45,048 bases of DNA from Verrucomicrobiota bacterium (lineage in GTDB: Bacteria; Verrucomicrobiota; Verrucomicrobiia; Opitutales; UBA953): assembly GCA_016871725.1 (NCBI GenBank), contig VHCL01000009.1:1-45048 (forward strand). Reading direction: 5' to 3'. Within the stretch, counting starts at the first letter, position 1. Each line of letters begins with the position of its first letter. This document shows positions 2,594-41,733 of the stretch, piece after piece. Position numbers and translations under genes: made by a program. The notes under the pieces are model-generated. The model searched no databases. It worked only from the letters and a program-made list of their open reading frames with translations, and was not told the origin of the DNA.

Positions 2594-3379
2594 ATGCTCC
2601 GCCCCCTCCTCGCCCTGCTCCTCGCCTCGGTGGCCGCCCTCGCCGCCGAGCCTAACCGCGCCTTGGTCTTCTCGAAGACCGCCGGCTTCCGTCACAAGGA
2701 TTCGATCCCGCTCGGCAACGCCCTGTTGGCCCAGCAGTTGAAGGCCCAAGGCCTCGAAGTCGAGATCACCGAAGACGCCGCGGTCTTCACCGCCGAGAAT
2801 CTGGCCAAGGTCCGCGTGGTGGCGTTCATGAGCACGACGGGCGATGTGATGGGCGACGTCCTGCCCAAGGACGCTTCCAAGGCAGCCAAGGACGCCAACG
2901 CCAAGGTGGCCGAGGCCCGTCGCGCGGCCTTCCAGGCCTGGATGGAGAACGGCGGCGCGTTCGTCGGCGTGCATGCGGCTTCTGATGCCGGCGCGGCCGA
3001 CAAATACTGGCCGTGGTTCGCCCACATGGTCGGCGGCCTCTTCGCCGGCCACCCGGCCCAGCAGGTCGCGATCCTGCGTCCCATCGTCAAAGATCACCCC
3101 GCCAACGCCCACCTCGGCGCCGAGTGGAAGCGCAAGGACGAGTGGTACTCCTTCCGCAATCTCGCCCAGGACAACGTCGTGCTCCTGGAGATCGACGAAA
3201 AGTCCTACGCCCCGCAGAAGGGCAAGGAGATGGGCGACCATCACCCGATGACCTGGTGCAAGGAAGTCGGCAAGGGCCGCATGTTCTACACCGCCCTCGG
3301 CCACACCAAGGAATCGTTCGCGGAACCGGACTTCATCAAGCACCTCGACGGAGGCGTGCGGTGGGTGCTGAAGAAGTAG
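2594..3379 (+). CDS. Secreted ThuA-like domain protein
   Basis: 261-residue exported protein of the ThuA / glutamine-amidotransferase-like fold, linked in the literature to trehalose and 3-keto-sugar use. The first 18 residues (MLRPLLALLLASVAALAA) are a signal peptide. The mature protein opens with RALVFSKTAGFRH, the typical ThuA strand and loop. GGAFVGVHAASDA near residues 120-132 and HHPMTWC near 225 are characteristic of the family. I chose the ATG at 2594, which gives the signal peptide directly; an upstream in-frame start at 2567 would add non-signal residues encoded by a repeat word. The stop is TAG, and its last base begins a 7-bp repeat array. The exact substrate is unknown. Confidence 0.88.
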   Translation: MLRPLLALLLASVAALAAEPNRALVFSKTAGFRHKDSIPLGNALLAQQLKAQGLEVEITEDAAVFTAENLAKVRVVAFMSTTGDVMGDVLPKDASKAAKDANAKVAEARRAAFQAWMENGGAFVGVHAASDAGAADKYWPWFAHMVGGLFAGHPAQQVAILRPIVKDHPANAHLGAEWKRKDEWYSFRNLAQDNVVLLEIDEKSYAPQKGKEMGDHHPMTWCKEVGKGRMFYTALGHTKESFAEPDFIKHLDGGVRWVLKK

Positions 3380-35347: not shown

Positions 35348-36127
35348 TCACTTCTCGCGCTGGTACCAGGCGAAGAAGGCGTAGCCCATGCAGCCGAGGG
35401 CGAAGACCTCGTTGAAGCCCTTCATCACGACCGCGCCGAGGATCATGTCGGCCGCGGCCGAGAGCTCGCTCACGCGCGGCGCCAGCCGGTAGGTCTCGTA
35501 GATCGGGTGGTCGCCGAAGATGAGCACCGCCCACAGCGGCAGGTCGGCGACCATCAGGCCGAAGGAATAGAAGATCGCCGCCCCATAGCCGATGCGAGGC
35601 AGCCGGCGGGAGAGCGAGAACAGCGGCCAGACCATCAGGACCGCCGGCAGGAACATCGACCAGTGCTCGACCACGTGGAGCGGACGGCTGCGCAGGGCGG
35701 CCTCGTAGAGCTCAGGGAAATGCCACATCGAGAAGCACAGCGTGAAGACCAGCCCGCCGGTGACCGGATGGGTCAGGAAGGCCAGCGCGCGCGTGAGCCG
35801 GGGCCGGGGCTCCAGGAAACCGTCGACGAGCTCCGGCGGAAGGCCCGTGACGATGAGCGGGGCGGCGACGTAGATCAGCAGCATGTGCTGCAGCATGTGG
35901 GCCCAGAACAGGAACCCCTCGCCGAGCTGGTCCAACGGGGAGCCGACGGCGACGTAGGCGACGAGCACGCCGAGATGGAACCGCACCGCGTGCCCCACGG
36001 GATACGCCGTGCGCCCCGGCAGGCAGCGGGCGCGGTACGGCCCGCAGGCGAGGGCGTGCGCCCAGGACGCGCCGACGACCAGGAGCAGCAGGAGCGGCTC
36101 CGTGTGCCAGTGCAGGGGGATGTTCAT
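35348..36127 (-). CDS. ctaG: Cytochrome c oxidase assembly factor, caa3 CtaG family
   Basis: 259-residue membrane protein with about seven helices, implicated in assembly of caa3 oxidase (copper delivery). WHTEPLLLLLVVGASWAHAL near 7-26, FWAHMLQHMLLIYVAAPLIVTG near 75-97, CFSMWHFPELYEAALRS near 135-151 and VEHWSMFLPAVLMVWPLF near 158 show the family's conserved histidines. I chose the ATG at 36127 because the longer frame runs into the terminator. It is convergent with the LptF/G gene (6 bp apart) and lies downstream of the cox operon terminator. Confidence 0.88.
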   Translation of the reverse strand: MNIPLHWHTEPLLLLLVVGASWAHALACGPYRARCLPGRTAYPVGHAVRFHLGVLVAYVAVGSPLDQLGEGFLFWAHMLQHMLLIYVAAPLIVTGLPPELVDGFLEPRPRLTRALAFLTHPVTGGLVFTLCFSMWHFPELYEAALRSRPLHVVEHWSMFLPAVLMVWPLFSLSRRLPRIGYGAAIFYSFGLMVADLPLWAVLIFGDHPIYETYRLAPRVSELSAAADMILGAVVMKGFNEVFALGCMGYAFFAWYQREK

Positions 36128-36179
36128 CGCCGATGATATGAAGCGCGCCCGCCCCGGCCCGCAAGCGTGGGGCACGAAA

Positions 36180-36227: not shown

Positions 36228-36569
36228 TCAGCTGAACCAGCGCGTGTCGATGCGGTCGGCGCTGAACAGGGCCAGCACCGCGGCGTAGGTCGCGAAGGCC
36301 AGCACCAGGCCGGCGAGGAAGCACCAGAAGAGCAGGCGCTTGTCGTAGATCAGGTGCATGAACCAGAGGATGACCGCGAAGAACTTGCCCGCGGACATCA
36401 GGGTCAGGACCGTGAAGATGACGGCGGTCGGCAGCGGCAGGTAGATCAGGACGATCTCGGCGCCGGTGACGACGGCCAGCCAGAGGGCCAGCACGATGAA
36501 GTGGTGGTAGCGGCGGACTTCCTCGGCGAGGAAGGCCTGGCTCGGAGCGGCTTCGTGGGAAGAGGACAT
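36228..36569 (-). CDS. ctaF: Cytochrome c oxidase subunit IV (prokaryotic type)
   Basis: 113-residue membrane protein with three helices: FIVLALWLAVVTGAEIVLIYL, AVIFTVLTLMSAGKFFAVILWFMHL, and FWCFLAGLVLAFATYAAVLAL. The sequence KFFAVILWFMHLIYD is typical of prokaryotic COX4 subunits. It probably stabilises the oxidase core. It starts 15 bp after ctaE ends on the minus strand and is followed by a terminator. Confidence 0.9.
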   Translation of the reverse strand: MSSSHEAAPSQAFLAEEVRRYHHFIVLALWLAVVTGAEIVLIYLPLPTAVIFTVLTLMSAGKFFAVILWFMHLIYDKRLLFWCFLAGLVLAFATYAAVLALFSADRIDTRWFS

Positions 36570-36584: not shown

Positions 36585-37253
36585 TTATTTGAGGACGGCG
36601 GGCAGGCCGGACCCCCAGATGCCGTAGGGCCCGAGGTATTCGACGAGGTAGACGGCCGTGAAGATGATGATCCACACGATGTCGACGAAGTGCCAGTAGA
36701 GGCCCGCGACCTCGACGTCGAGGGCGCCCATGTGGCCGCCGAGCTTGCCGGTGAAGCTGTAGAAATAGAGCAGGATCAGCCAGAGCACGCCGATGGCCAC
36801 GTGCGTGCCGTGCGTGCCGGTGAGCACGTAGAACGTCGAGCCGAGGACGCTGTTCTGGATGGTCAGGCCCTTGTGGTAGAAGTGCGTGAACTCGTAGACC
36901 TGGCAGCCCAGGAAGATCAGGCCGAAGACGATCACGCCGAGGACGTTGCGCCGGAAGGACTTCAGCTGGCCCTTGTGCATCGCGGAGACGGCGAGCGCCA
37001 TCAGGAACGACGACATCAGGAGGATGAACGTCGAGAACGACGTCAGCTCGATGGAGAAGAGCTCCTGGATGAAGCGCTGGTGGCCTTCCGCGTCGGTGAA
37101 GCCGGCGGGGAAGAGCTTGCGGTACAGCAGGTGGGTCGAGATCAGCGTGCCGAAGAACATGCAGTCCGAAGCCAGGAAGAGCCACATGATGAGCTTCTTG
37201 TGGTCGATCCCGGTGGAGGTGGGCGCTTCGTGCGCGGCGGCGTGGTCAGACAT
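36585..37253 (-). CDS. ctaE: Cytochrome c oxidase subunit III
   Basis: 222-residue core subunit with five helices. KKLIMWLFLASDCMFFGTLIS near 19-39 opens the protein. FILLMSSFLMALAVSAMHKG, then GTHGTHVAIGVLWLILLYFY near 150 and YWHFVDIVWIIIFTAVYL near 190 are the usual helices, with the conserved histidines and the tryptophan-aspartate pair. The short form without the first two helices of mitochondrial subunit III is standard for caa3-type enzymes. It lies 35 bp after ctaD. Confidence 0.95.
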   Translation of the reverse strand: MSDHAAAHEAPTSTGIDHKKLIMWLFLASDCMFFGTLISTHLLYRKLFPAGFTDAEGHQRFIQELFSIELTSFSTFILLMSSFLMALAVSAMHKGQLKSFRRNVLGVIVFGLIFLGCQVYEFTHFYHKGLTIQNSVLGSTFYVLTGTHGTHVAIGVLWLILLYFYSFTGKLGGHMGALDVEVAGLYWHFVDIVWIIIFTAVYLVEYLGPYGIWGSGLPAVLK

Positions 37254-37288: not shown

Positions 37289-39316
37289 TCAGCGGGCGAC
37301 GGTCTCGGCCGGGGCCGGAGCGCCGGCCGGGGCCGGGGTCTTGAGCATGTAGCCGCCCGGACCTTCGAGGGCCCAGAGCCAGACGCCGAGGAAGAGGACG
37401 CCGAGGCCGGCGATGACGAGCCAGCCCGCGTGCGGGATGCCCATCGCCATCATCGGCATGCCGAAGCCGATGAAGAGGAAGCCCGCCGAGGCGAGCATCG
37501 GCATCCAGGACTGGCTGGGCATGTGGACGCCGGCTTCGCCGCCGTCGTTCTCGGCGCCGATCCTCTTGGCGCCGTGCTTGTGCTCGAAGAAGGCGTCGCG
37601 GGTGGCGACGACCGGCGCCTGGGCGAAGTTGTACTCCGGCACCGGGGAGGGCAGCGACCACTCGAGGGTGCGGCCGTCCCACGGGTCGTTGCCGCACTTC
37701 TTGCCGCGGAACGCGGTCCAGACGAGGTTGCCGAAGACGATCACGACGCCGATGCCGAGGACGTAGGCGCCGATGGTGGCGACGAGGTTCCAGGTCTCCC
37801 AGCCGTTGCCGGCGTGGTAGGTGTGCGTGCGGCGCGGCTGGCCGGCGAGGCCGAGGTAGTGCATCGGGCCGAAGGCGAGGTTGAAGCCGAGGATGACGAG
37901 GGCGGAGCCGAGGTAGGCGACCGGGGCGTTCGGCATGCGGCCGAAGATCTTCGGGAACCAGAAGTAGAGGCCGGCCATCAGGCCGAGGAGCACGCCGCCG
38001 AGGAGCACGTAGTGGAAGTGCGCGATGACGAAGTAGCTGTCCTGCTGCTGGGAGTCGGCCGGGGCCGAGGAGTGCATGACGCCGGAGAAGCCGCCGCACA
38101 TGAACATCCAGATGAAGCCGAGGGCGAGGACCATGGGCGGCGTGAAGCGGATGCGGCCGCCCCAGATCGTGCCCAGCCAGTTGAAGATCTTCACGCCCGT
38201 CGGGACGGCGATGGCCATCGTGAGGAGCGAGAAGGCGGCGGTCGGCACGGGGCCGAGGCCGGTGGTGAACATGTGGTGGCTCCAGACGGCGAAGCCGAGG
38301 AAGCCGATGACGGCGCCGGAGAAGACGATGATCGGGTAGCCGAAGAGCGACTTGCCGGTGAACGTCGGGAGGACTTCCGAGACGATGCCCATCGCCGGGA
38401 GGACGAGGATGTACACCTCCGGATGGCCGAAGATCCAGAAGAGGTGCTGCCAGAGGACGGGCTGGCCGCCGGCCGACGGGTTGAAGAAGTTGGCGCCGAA
38501 GGCGCGGTCGAACATCAGCTCGATGAGCGCGACGGTGATGGCCGGGAAGGCCAGGATGATCAGCACGGAGGTGACGAGGGTCATCCAGGTGAAGACCGGC
38601 AGGCGCATCATCGTCATGCCCTTGGCGCGCATGTTGATGATGGTGCAGATGAAGTTGAACGAGGCCGCGAGCGAGGCGATGCCGAGGATCTGGATGCCGA
38701 TGATCCAGAAGTCGGTGCCGACGCCGGTGAAGCGCAGGGCCTGGCCGTTGGCGCCGAAGGTGCCGGAGAGCGGCGCGTAGCTGAACCAGCCGTTGGCCGG
38801 GGCGAAGTCGGTGTAGACGAGCGCCTTGTGCCAGGCGAAGGAGTCGAACCAGCCGGCGAGGTGGCCGAACTCGAAGAGCCAGGAGGCGTTGAGCACGAAC
38901 GCGCCGAACACGAAGGTCCAGAGCGAGAACGCGTTCAGGCGCGGGAAGGCGACGTCGCGCGCGCCGACCTGCAGCGGCACGAGGAAGTTGAAGAACGCGG
39001 CCGACAGCGGCATGACCCCGAGGAAGATCATCGTGGTGCCGTGCATGGTGAAGAGCTGGTTGTACATGCGCGCCGTGATGAAGTCGTTGTCCGGGCGGGC
39101 CAGCTGCGTGCGGATGGCGAGGGCCTCGACGCCGCCGATGAGGAAGTACAGCATCGCGAACGCGCCGTACATGATGCCGATCTTCTTGTGGTCGACGGTG
39201 GTCAGCCAGTCGGTCCAGCCGGTCGCCCGGTCCGGACGGTACAGGCCGAGGTCGCTGCGCTCGGGAGCGAGCTCCGTCTTGCAGGCGACGGGAGCGTGAT
39301 GGGAGTCGTGGGACAT
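37289..39316 (-). CDS. ctaD: Cytochrome c oxidase subunit I (heme a3-CuB)
   Basis: 675-residue catalytic subunit reducing oxygen to water and pumping protons. Type-A features are complete. The D-channel region is GARDVAFPRLNAFS, the CuB and crosslink motif is GHPEVYILVLP, the second copper pair is HHMFTTGL, the K-channel lysine lies in PTGVKIFNWLGTIWGG, and the heme ligands are in SYFVIAHFHYVLLGG. The length reflects extra C-terminal helices fused to the core, as in caa3 enzymes. It lies between the broken subunit II gene and ctaE. Confidence 0.97.
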   Translation of the reverse strand: MSHDSHHAPVACKTELAPERSDLGLYRPDRATGWTDWLTTVDHKKIGIMYGAFAMLYFLIGGVEALAIRTQLARPDNDFITARMYNQLFTMHGTTMIFLGVMPLSAAFFNFLVPLQVGARDVAFPRLNAFSLWTFVFGAFVLNASWLFEFGHLAGWFDSFAWHKALVYTDFAPANGWFSYAPLSGTFGANGQALRFTGVGTDFWIIGIQILGIASLAASFNFICTIINMRAKGMTMMRLPVFTWMTLVTSVLIILAFPAITVALIELMFDRAFGANFFNPSAGGQPVLWQHLFWIFGHPEVYILVLPAMGIVSEVLPTFTGKSLFGYPIIVFSGAVIGFLGFAVWSHHMFTTGLGPVPTAAFSLLTMAIAVPTGVKIFNWLGTIWGGRIRFTPPMVLALGFIWMFMCGGFSGVMHSSAPADSQQQDSYFVIAHFHYVLLGGVLLGLMAGLYFWFPKIFGRMPNAPVAYLGSALVILGFNLAFGPMHYLGLAGQPRRTHTYHAGNGWETWNLVATIGAYVLGIGVVIVFGNLVWTAFRGKKCGNDPWDGRTLEWSLPSPVPEYNFAQAPVVATRDAFFEHKHGAKRIGAENDGGEAGVHMPSQSWMPMLASAGFLFIGFGMPMMAMGIPHAGWLVIAGLGVLFLGVWLWALEGPGGYMLKTPAPAGAPAPAETVAR

Positions 39317-39340: not shown

Positions 39341-39859
39341 TTACTTGAGGGTGAGGAGGTATTCGGCGAGGTGGTCGAGCTCCTCGGCGGTGAACTGCTG
39401 GTTGGTCTCGCGGAGACCGGCGACGTTGAACATCTTGTAATAGTGCATGCGGTTGCCGGGCTTGACGTCCTTGGTCGGCTTGCCGTCCGCGCCGTGCGCG
39501 ACGCCGGAGGAGCCGATCCACTTGATGAGGTTGGCCTTCAGCGTGACCGGATCGACCGGGACGGAGTCCTCGGTGTTGCCGGTCTTGCGCTCGAGCGCGA
39601 GCTGCTGGGCGGGGTCGCGGTTGTCGAGCCAGGCGCCGGCGAGGGACTTGCGCGAGGCGACGTGCGTGAGGTCGGGGCCGAAGGCGCCGGCGCCGAAGTG
39701 GCCGCCGACGTTATGGCACATCACGCAGCTCTTGGCGGCGAAGAGGGCCTTGCCCTTCTCGGCCTTGGAACCGGCGGCCACGGGGGCGGCCTCGGCCTTC
39801 TGCTTCTGCACCCACTTGGCGAACTCGGCGGGCTCGACGACCTCGACGCGGAAGAGCAT
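39341..39859 (-). CDS. ctaC: C-terminal part of CtaC: end of the CuA motif and cytochrome c domain
   Basis: The same reading frame as the upstream CtaC segment continues directly after the TAG at 39869-39871. The first residues after that codon are HAYMLFRVEV, which supply the CuA histidine and methionine, so this is not a separate gene. If translation restarts at the ATG at 39859 the product is 172 residues and lacks the CuA His. The rest is a fused c-type cytochrome: SCVMCHNVGGHFG with CxxCH near residues 46-50, and GNRMHYYKMF as the likely region of the distal methionine. The C-terminus AEELDHLAEYLLTLK is a normal family end. A CtaC-cytochrome c fusion defines caa3 oxidases. Confidence 0.85.
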   Translation of the reverse strand: MLFRVEVVEPAEFAKWVQKQKAEAAPVAAGSKAEKGKALFAAKSCVMCHNVGGHFGAGAFGPDLTHVASRKSLAGAWLDNRDPAQQLALERKTGNTEDSVPVDPVTLKANLIKWIGSSGVAHGADGKPTKDVKPGNRMHYYKMFNVAGLRETNQQFTAEELDHLAEYLLTLK

Positions 39860-39868
39860 GTAGGCGTG

Positions 39869-40624
39869 CTAGTCGCCGCAGAACTCGGCGCACTGGCCGT
39901 AGTAGTGGCCGGTCTGGTCGGCCTGGATCCACATGTGGTTCTTGCGGCCGGGCATGAGGTCGACCTTGCCGGCGATCTTGGGCACCCAGAAGGAGTGGAT
40001 GACGTCCTCGGAACGGAGGTTGATGCGGACGGCCTTGCCCTTCGGGATCACGAGCTCGTTCGGGACGGAATGCTTGGCGTCGTTGGTGAGGCCGAGCTGC
40101 GGGTATTCGAAACGGAACCACCACTGCTTGCCGATGACATCGACCTCGAGCACCTGCTCTTCGACGGTCTTGGCGTAGTTCTCGCGGCCGCCTTCGACGC
40201 GCGGATACCAGGCGGAAAGCTTGGAAGCCGGGACGGCTTCGGCCGGGACGTCGTCGGTGTACCAGATGGCGCTCAGGGTCGGGATCGCGATGACGACGAG
40301 CGCGCCGATGGACGCGGTGATGAGGCCGATCTCGATGAGGGGATTGCCGTGGCCGTCCTCGACGATGGCGGGCTTGTTCTCGTCGCCCGGACGCGAGCGG
40401 AACTTGATGACGGCGAAGACGAGCAGGCCGCCGACCAGCGTGAAGAGGACCACGACCAGCCAGACGGTGTCCATGAAGACATCGAACTGGACCTGCGCGA
40501 CCGGACCCTTGGGGTCCATGGTCGACTGACGGACGGTCAGCTCTTCCTTGGAGCAGCCGGCCATGACGAGGGCCAGGAGGGGGGCGGCGAACAGACCGAC
40601 CCGACTGAGGATACGAGAAAACAT
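39869..40624 (-). CDS. ctaC: Cytochrome c oxidase subunit II, N-terminal part, cut by an in-frame TAG in the CuA site
   Basis: Receives electrons from cytochrome c at the CuA centre. 251 residues are encoded before TAG. An N-terminal lipoprotein-like signal ends at MAGC (Cys24). Two membrane helices lie near 50-70 and 92-115. The cupredoxin domain has KQWWFRFEYP, DVIHSFWVPKIAGKVD with the first CuA histidine, and ends GHYYGQCAEFCGD just before TAG. Both CuA cysteines are present, but the following His and Met (HAYM) are behind the stop. Without the TAG the gene would run 39341-40624 and encode 427 residues. A sequencing or assembly error, a real nonsense mutation or readthrough all remain possible. 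Confidence 0.9.
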   Translation of the reverse strand: MFSRILSRVGLFAAPLLALVMAGCSKEELTVRQSTMDPKGPVAQVQFDVFMDTVWLVVVLFTLVGGLLVFAVIKFRSRPGDENKPAIVEDGHGNPLIEIGLITASIGALVVIAIPTLSAIWYTDDVPAEAVPASKLSAWYPRVEGGRENYAKTVEEQVLEVDVIGKQWWFRFEYPQLGLTNDAKHSVPNELVIPKGKAVRINLRSEDVIHSFWVPKIAGKVDLMPGRKNHMWIQADQTGHYYGQCAEFCGD

Positions 40625-40875: not shown

Positions 40876-41733
40876 ATGTCCTGGTCGAGCCCTCATGGCA
40901 CCCCCCTGCCCGACTGGCGCCGGCGTACATTAATCATGGGGATCATGAACCTGACGCCGGATTCCTTCTCCGACGGAGGGGCGCTCCCTGGCGTCGACGA
41001 CGCGCTCCGCCGCGCCGAAGCCTTGTTGCACGAGGGAGCCGACGTGCTCGATCTCGGCGCGGAGTCGACCCGGCCGGGCGCGGCGCCCGTCGCCGCCGCC
41101 GACGAACGCGACCGCCTCCTCCCGGTCGTCCAAGCCTTGCGCCGTCGCTTCCCGCAGGCCATGCTCTCGGTCGACACCTATAAGCCGGACGTCGCCGAGG
41201 CCGCCGTCGCCGCCGGCGCGGACCTCGTCAACGACGTCGAAGGCGGCCGCTTCGGCGCCCGCGGCGACGAGTCGCCGATGGGCGCGGTCTGCGCGAAGGC
41301 ACGTTGCCCGCTCATCCTGATGCACCGCCGCCGCGAAGCGGATTATCACGATTTCTGGCCGGAAATACTGGCCGATCTGCGCGGTTCACTGCGCGCGGCG
41401 ATGGCCGCCGGCATGGCGCCGGAACAGCTCTGGACCGATCCCGGTTTCGGCTTCGGGAAGACGCCGGACCAGAACCTCCGGCTCGTGCGCGACCTCGCCA
41501 AGGTCGCCGCGCTCGGTCACCCGGTCCTCCTCGGGACGAGCCGGAAGTCGACGCTCGGCCTCGTGCTCGGCGAAGCGGACCCCATGCGCCGGACGGCGGG
41601 CAATGACGTGACGGCCGCCTGGGGCGTCGCCCAAGGTTGTTCGATGGTGCGAGTCCATGACGTGGCCGCGATCCGCCCGGTCATCCGGATGGCCGATGCC
41701 CTCCGGCAGGGCTCCCTCCCGGCCGGAAAATAA
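40876..41733 (+). CDS. folP: Dihydropteroate synthase
   Basis: Joins p-aminobenzoate to the pterin pyrophosphate in folate synthesis. The 285-residue product has all the family motifs: MGIMNLTPDSFSDGG near 22-36, GAESTRPGA near 59, SVDTYKP near 98, NDVEGG near 114, LILMHRR near 139, DPGFGFGKTPDQN near 178, GTSRKSTLG near 211, and VRVHDV near 255. I chose the ATG at 40876. The frame stays open to 40759, but that part is AT- and proline-rich and unlike the family. It stands alone between the cox operon and the tRNA gene. Confidence 0.95.
   Translation: MSWSSPHGTPLPDWRRRTLIMGIMNLTPDSFSDGGALPGVDDALRRAEALLHEGADVLDLGAESTRPGAAPVAAADERDRLLPVVQALRRRFPQAMLSVDTYKPDVAEAAVAAGADLVNDVEGGRFGARGDESPMGAVCAKARCPLILMHRRREADYHDFWPEILADLRGSLRAAMAAGMAPEQLWTDPGFGFGKTPDQNLRLVRDLAKVAALGHPVLLGTSRKSTLGLVLGEADPMRRTAGNDVTAAWGVAQGCSMVRVHDVAAIRPVIRMADALRQGSLPAGK

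Follow-up and report, generated by a model that had tools for sequence, protein, structure and literature searches.

An in-frame TAG in the CuA loop of an Opitutales ctaC gene: probably a wrong base in the assembly, or else a very recent loss of function

Background

The window analyzed here (the whole stretch of 45,048 nucleotides, which is the entire contig C9 of an uncultured Opitutales bacterium's draft genome of 178 contigs and 2.37 Mb that is 96% complete) carries ctaC, the gene for a caa3-type cytochrome c oxidase subunit II, at positions 40624-39341 of the minus strand. One in-frame TAG lies inside this gene (39869..39871, minus strand), and the question raised by the locus is whether this codon is a wrong base, a genuine lesion, or a stop codon that the cell reads as an amino acid. 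A first-pass annotation had proposed a sequencing or assembly error, a strain variant or pseudogene, or local readthrough. An error and a recent nonsense mutation remain, while functional readthrough has no support, as no relative read carries TAG at the site. In all likelihood the stop reflects either a mistake in the assembly or a loss of function that arose very recently, and not a new use of a stop codon.

The ctaC frame and its internal stop

Read from the ATG at 40624, the ctaC frame runs to ...HYYGQCAEFCGD, meets the TAG at 39871-39869, continues with HAYMLFRVEVVEP..., and stays open until the TAA at 39343-39341. The base next after the TAG is C, and 175 sense codons separate the TAG from the TAA. 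The frame reading confirmed the first-pass placement of the stop between the second CuA cysteine and the histidine and methionine of the ligand loop (CAEFCGD-stop-HAYM, 39857..39892, minus strand; ligand identities were taken from established CuA knowledge). The CuA spacing C-x3-C-x3-H-x2-M holds when the TAG is counted as one x. The codon usage score, trained on the genome's own genes, was 0.82 before the stop and 0.90 after it. Given these high scores through the stop, and with no other such stop in 457 kb, the TAG lies within a coding frame and is no chance pattern.

Read across the stop, the gene encodes a lipoprotein-like N-terminus, two transmembrane helices, a CuA domain, and a C-terminal cytochrome c domain. 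The part before the stop matched CoxB (TIGR02866) at E 6.5e-41 and 140.1 bits, slightly under the cut-off of 147.7, as expected because the query was truncated, and the COX2 (CuA) model PF00116 matched above its cut-off (E 2.7e-22, 79.8 bits) with one TAG within the match. When CtaC was translated with X at the stop, its best match among solved structures was 2yev chain B, Thermus caa3 subunit II (E 8.5e-43). This chain has Ala-Ser-His at the position of the TAG, and its match reaches query residue 336; the C-terminal CxxCH is present as CVMCH in the post-stop frame (39341..39859, minus strand), which holds the cytochrome c domain and a possible restart ATG at 39859 and has no signal peptide. 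Under the standard code, no single product carries the complete set of CuA ligands, since translation ends before the loop histidine and methionine; the set is complete only if the TAG site is truly a sense codon. A second intact copy of ctaC was not found, the COX2 domain search giving a single match in the genome.

The same codon in relatives

Using a subunit II query, matches were recovered from 53 of the 55 genomes of the same genus (the source genome included; some of the weaker matches are other cytochrome c domains), and a stop inside the match was seen only in the source genome. A COX2 domain search across the relatives gave the same outcome. With the source genome excluded, 58 loci from same-genus or same-order genomes could be read at the site, many of them repeats of one gene retrieved by both searches, and all had a sense codon: TCG in the nearest relatives, TCG, TCC, TCT, or TCA in the remainder, and GCG (alanine) in one distant relative of the same order. 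In a collection with one genome per species, which has some genomes in common with the 58-locus set, the 52 readable sites comprised 20 TCG, 20 TCC, 8 TCT, 3 TCA, and 1 GCC, with a stop in none of the 52. Alanine codons thus occurred in two relatives and serine codons in all others. No stop was present in any of the 54 distinct CtaC sequences besides that of the source (aligned, with identical rows removed).

The TAG is therefore private to the source assembly and differs by a single C-to-A change from the TCG of the nearest relatives, which was probably also the original codon in the source gene. This agrees with the single-base origin from TCG that had been proposed at the outset. The residue had been described as often Ser, Gly, or similar; serine was correct, and in this lineage it is nearly invariable, so that the position is more conserved than had been stated. 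A recoding shared by relatives at the same site, the outcome that would have favored a new codon meaning, was looked for in their ctaC genes and is rejected, as TAG occurred in no relative read. This comparison shows that the TAG is no evolved feature.

A ctaC match was absent from five genomes of the same genus in both searches (G003, G013, G014, G020, and G052) and from a sixth (G035) in the subunit II query search. Such absences may reflect true loss of the caa3 oxidase or incomplete bins. Separately, public bins titled Polynucleobacter meluiroseus, Rhodocyclaceae, and Akkermansia muciniphila (L098, L099, and L119) carried a ctaC 86-94% identical to the Opitutales gene, and on this basis the titles of these records look wrong.

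State of ctaC and the caa3 operon

Against its nearest relatives, ctaC has a similar dN/dS on the two sides of the stop, at 0.10-0.25 in the part before and 0.07-0.29 in the part after. In the alignment of 55 distinct CtaC rows, the source sequence had zero private changes at 170 otherwise invariant columns. Neither further damage nor relaxed selection, as would mark a decaying pseudogene, was found in ctaC.

Apart from the stop, the operon is intact. Downstream on the minus strand are the open frames of ctaD (oxidase subunit I, 37289..39316), ctaE (oxidase subunit III, 36585..37253), a ctaF-like small membrane protein that is probably oxidase subunit IV judging from its position and composition (36228..36569, intact, with no NCBIfam match), and a CtaG-like oxidase assembly protein (35348..36175, intact; TIGR02737 at E 8.4e-28, under the curated cut-off), the real start of which may be internal to the listed frame. 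The intact flanks and the lack of other private changes bear out the earlier view that this is not old decay. Because ctaC shows no other damage or relaxation and the operon is open, the stop is either an error or extremely recent.

Elsewhere in the window, ARAGORN called a tRNA-Ala(ggc) at 41455-41530, on the opposite strand within a folP-like frame. This is probably a false call, since it is missing from the matches of the Rfam tRNA model and contig C101 has an unambiguous tRNA-Ala(ggc).

A wrong base as the preferred explanation

We lean towards a consensus error in this 178-contig draft, or a minority base that found its way into the consensus, as the probable origin of the stop. On this reading, ctaC is an ordinary caa3-type gene whose conserved serine codon appears as TAG because the assembly shows A in place of C, and the living population would carry an intact ctaC. 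In favor of the base being wrong rather than mutated, all relatives readable at the site have a sense codon, with TCG in the nearest, and the stop is the sole feature distinguishing the source ctaC from the genes of its relatives. The source group is known almost only from metagenome bins. A C-to-A (G-to-T) change is the one expected from oxidised guanine during library preparation. Cooley and Wright (2024, PMC11017572) show that many 'pseudogenes' with internal stops in bacterial assemblies result from assembly errors, which depend on coverage, platform, and assembler; our literature search for internal stops in metagenome bins found nothing.

Internal stops across the assembly were surveyed in stretches of contigs C1-C4 and C8 together with the window (457 kb, about one fifth of the genome), by listing stops with 50 coding-like codons in frame on each side, using the score trained on the genome's own genes. 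The scan listed 38 places, and by inspection all except ctaC looked like either a gene end with another gene behind it or a frame without coding content. The ctaC TAG was the only stop in the 457 kb with a coding signal continuing through a conserved domain; with a sample of about one fifth, a few additional internal stops are possible in the remainder of the genome. An error-riddled assembly was thus not seen. A tblastn count with the stop-to-stop frames of relatives was too noisy and was not relied on, because the GC-rich genome yields antisense and shadow frames that also align well.

That 457 kb hold no other internal stop counts against an error, as the assembly is not generally poor, and it would be bad luck for an error to land exactly at the CuA site of ctaC. 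An error was nevertheless judged somewhat likelier than a mutation, as draft assemblies are known to yield single internal stops (PMC11017572) and the rest of ctaC is unchanged. A real mutation in the strain was kept as a substantial, lesser possibility because the rest of the sample is of good quality. This weighting is a judgement and not a measurement.

A real and recent nonsense mutation

The foremost alternative, credible enough to be carried forward but held with less confidence than a wrong base, is a real and recent nonsense mutation in the source strain, such that a working caa3 oxidase is not made. Translation would stop after 251 residues, so that the CuA histidine and methionine and the entire cytochrome c domain would be missing, and by established CuA knowledge the caa3 oxidase should be lost. 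The mutation would be a single-base step from TCG, and the clean stop scan, counted above against an error, here points to a good consensus.

Loss of caa3 need not be lethal nor stop aerobic respiration, as a cbb3 oxidase is encoded elsewhere in the genome. A fused CcoN-CcoO was found on contig C2 (G000:C2:111618-112904, L096), and a CcoN-like protein with an adjacent c-type cytochrome on contig C8 (G000:C8:24864-26099, L097), near an act-type (alternative complex III) cluster; the cbb3, CcoN, and act names are a reading of the sequences going beyond the COX1 domain match. Under a nonsense mutation, respiration would proceed via the cbb3 oxidase, or the cells bearing TAG would be a transient variant of low fitness. 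The several genomes of the genus in which ctaC had no match also suggest that the gene may be dispensable, though most of these bins are incomplete. Against a mutation, the event must be extremely recent given the lack of relaxation or other damage in ctaC, and nonsense alleles of core respiratory genes are rarely the major allele in a population.

Readthrough and a split gene

Functional readthrough or site-specific recoding, in which an amino acid is inserted at the TAG and a full-length subunit II is made, appears improbable. In its favor, the frame before and after the stop is intact and dN/dS is low. The decoding machinery of the genome and the lack of TAG at the site in any relative argue against it. 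Release factor RF1 is present and intact with its PAT and GGQ motifs, alongside RF2 with SPF. None of the 41 tRNAs found with the Rfam RF00005 model, all of which were identified by ARAGORN, has anticodon CTA, so the search for an amber suppressor tRNA that the first-pass annotation had called for came back empty. When the genome was scanned for the pattern of a CTA anticodon loop with a T loop behind it, two matches came up, neither true: one is a tRNA-Glu in which the match begins in the D arm and not at the anticodon, and the other is the opposite strand of a tRNA-Ser. With the genome 96% complete, the evidence for absence of a TAG-reading tRNA is strong, not absolute.

TAG terminates 18 of 306 coding-like frames in a 445 kb sample (17 others plus the ctaC site), including those ending at 3377 and 16977, which had been cited earlier as ordinary terminators and do end coding-like frames. 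With RF1 intact, no CTA tRNA found, TAG terminating genes, and no other internal TAG in the 457 kb sampled, genome-wide amber recoding, already thought unlikely, is rejected.

Near-cognate tRNAs at TAG usually insert Gln, Tyr, or Lys, not Ser. Low-level TAG readthrough is known in E. coli, with library means in rich medium, relative to a positive control, of about 0.5-0.8% at 18-25 °C and 0.01-0.03% at 37-42 °C (PMC11126739). Untuned TAG readthrough, which averages 1% or less in E. coli reporters, would yield little enzyme, too little for normal expression. Still more improbable is a site-specific, possibly conditional, amber readthrough in the CuA loop that tunes the amount of caa3 oxidase in one species only. 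Were the TAG truly translated, ctaC would offer an example, unusual in bacteria, of a metal site that depends on essential readthrough.

A ctaC divided into two functional parts, with translation of the second piece beginning anew at the ATG at 39859 nine bases past the stop, where a 172-residue open frame follows, is rejected as next to impossible, because a restart on the CuA methionine itself leaves the histidine ligand missing from both pieces, the second piece lacks the signal peptide without which c-type heme attachment in the periplasm is impossible, and no relative shows such a split.

Comparison with known systems

As it stands, the locus is useful as a caution, since a respiratory oxidase can seem to be lost from a draft genome on account of one base. 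The gene resembles known caa3 subunit II (CtaC/CoxB, TIGR02866; PF00116; Thermus caa3, PDB 2yev chain B) in its CuA domain with CAExCGxxHxxM, its transmembrane part, and its fused C-terminal cytochrome c domain, and the operon order ctaCDE(F)G is that of caa3 systems; it differs in the in-frame TAG in the CuA loop, which occurs in the source assembly only. In amber recoding, TAG is read as Gln in some phages and ciliates and as pyrrolysine in some archaea and bacteria. The ctaC gene shares with such systems an in-frame TAG within a conserved gene; the source genome differs in having no detected CTA tRNA, in having RF1, in relatives without TAG, and in ctaC being the sole case in the sample. 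In being an otherwise perfectly conserved gene with a single internal stop in a draft assembly, ctaC resembles the spurious 'pseudogenes' that arise from assembly errors (PMC11017572), although internal stops are not in excess in the 457 kb sampled and the genome overall is not flagged as poor.
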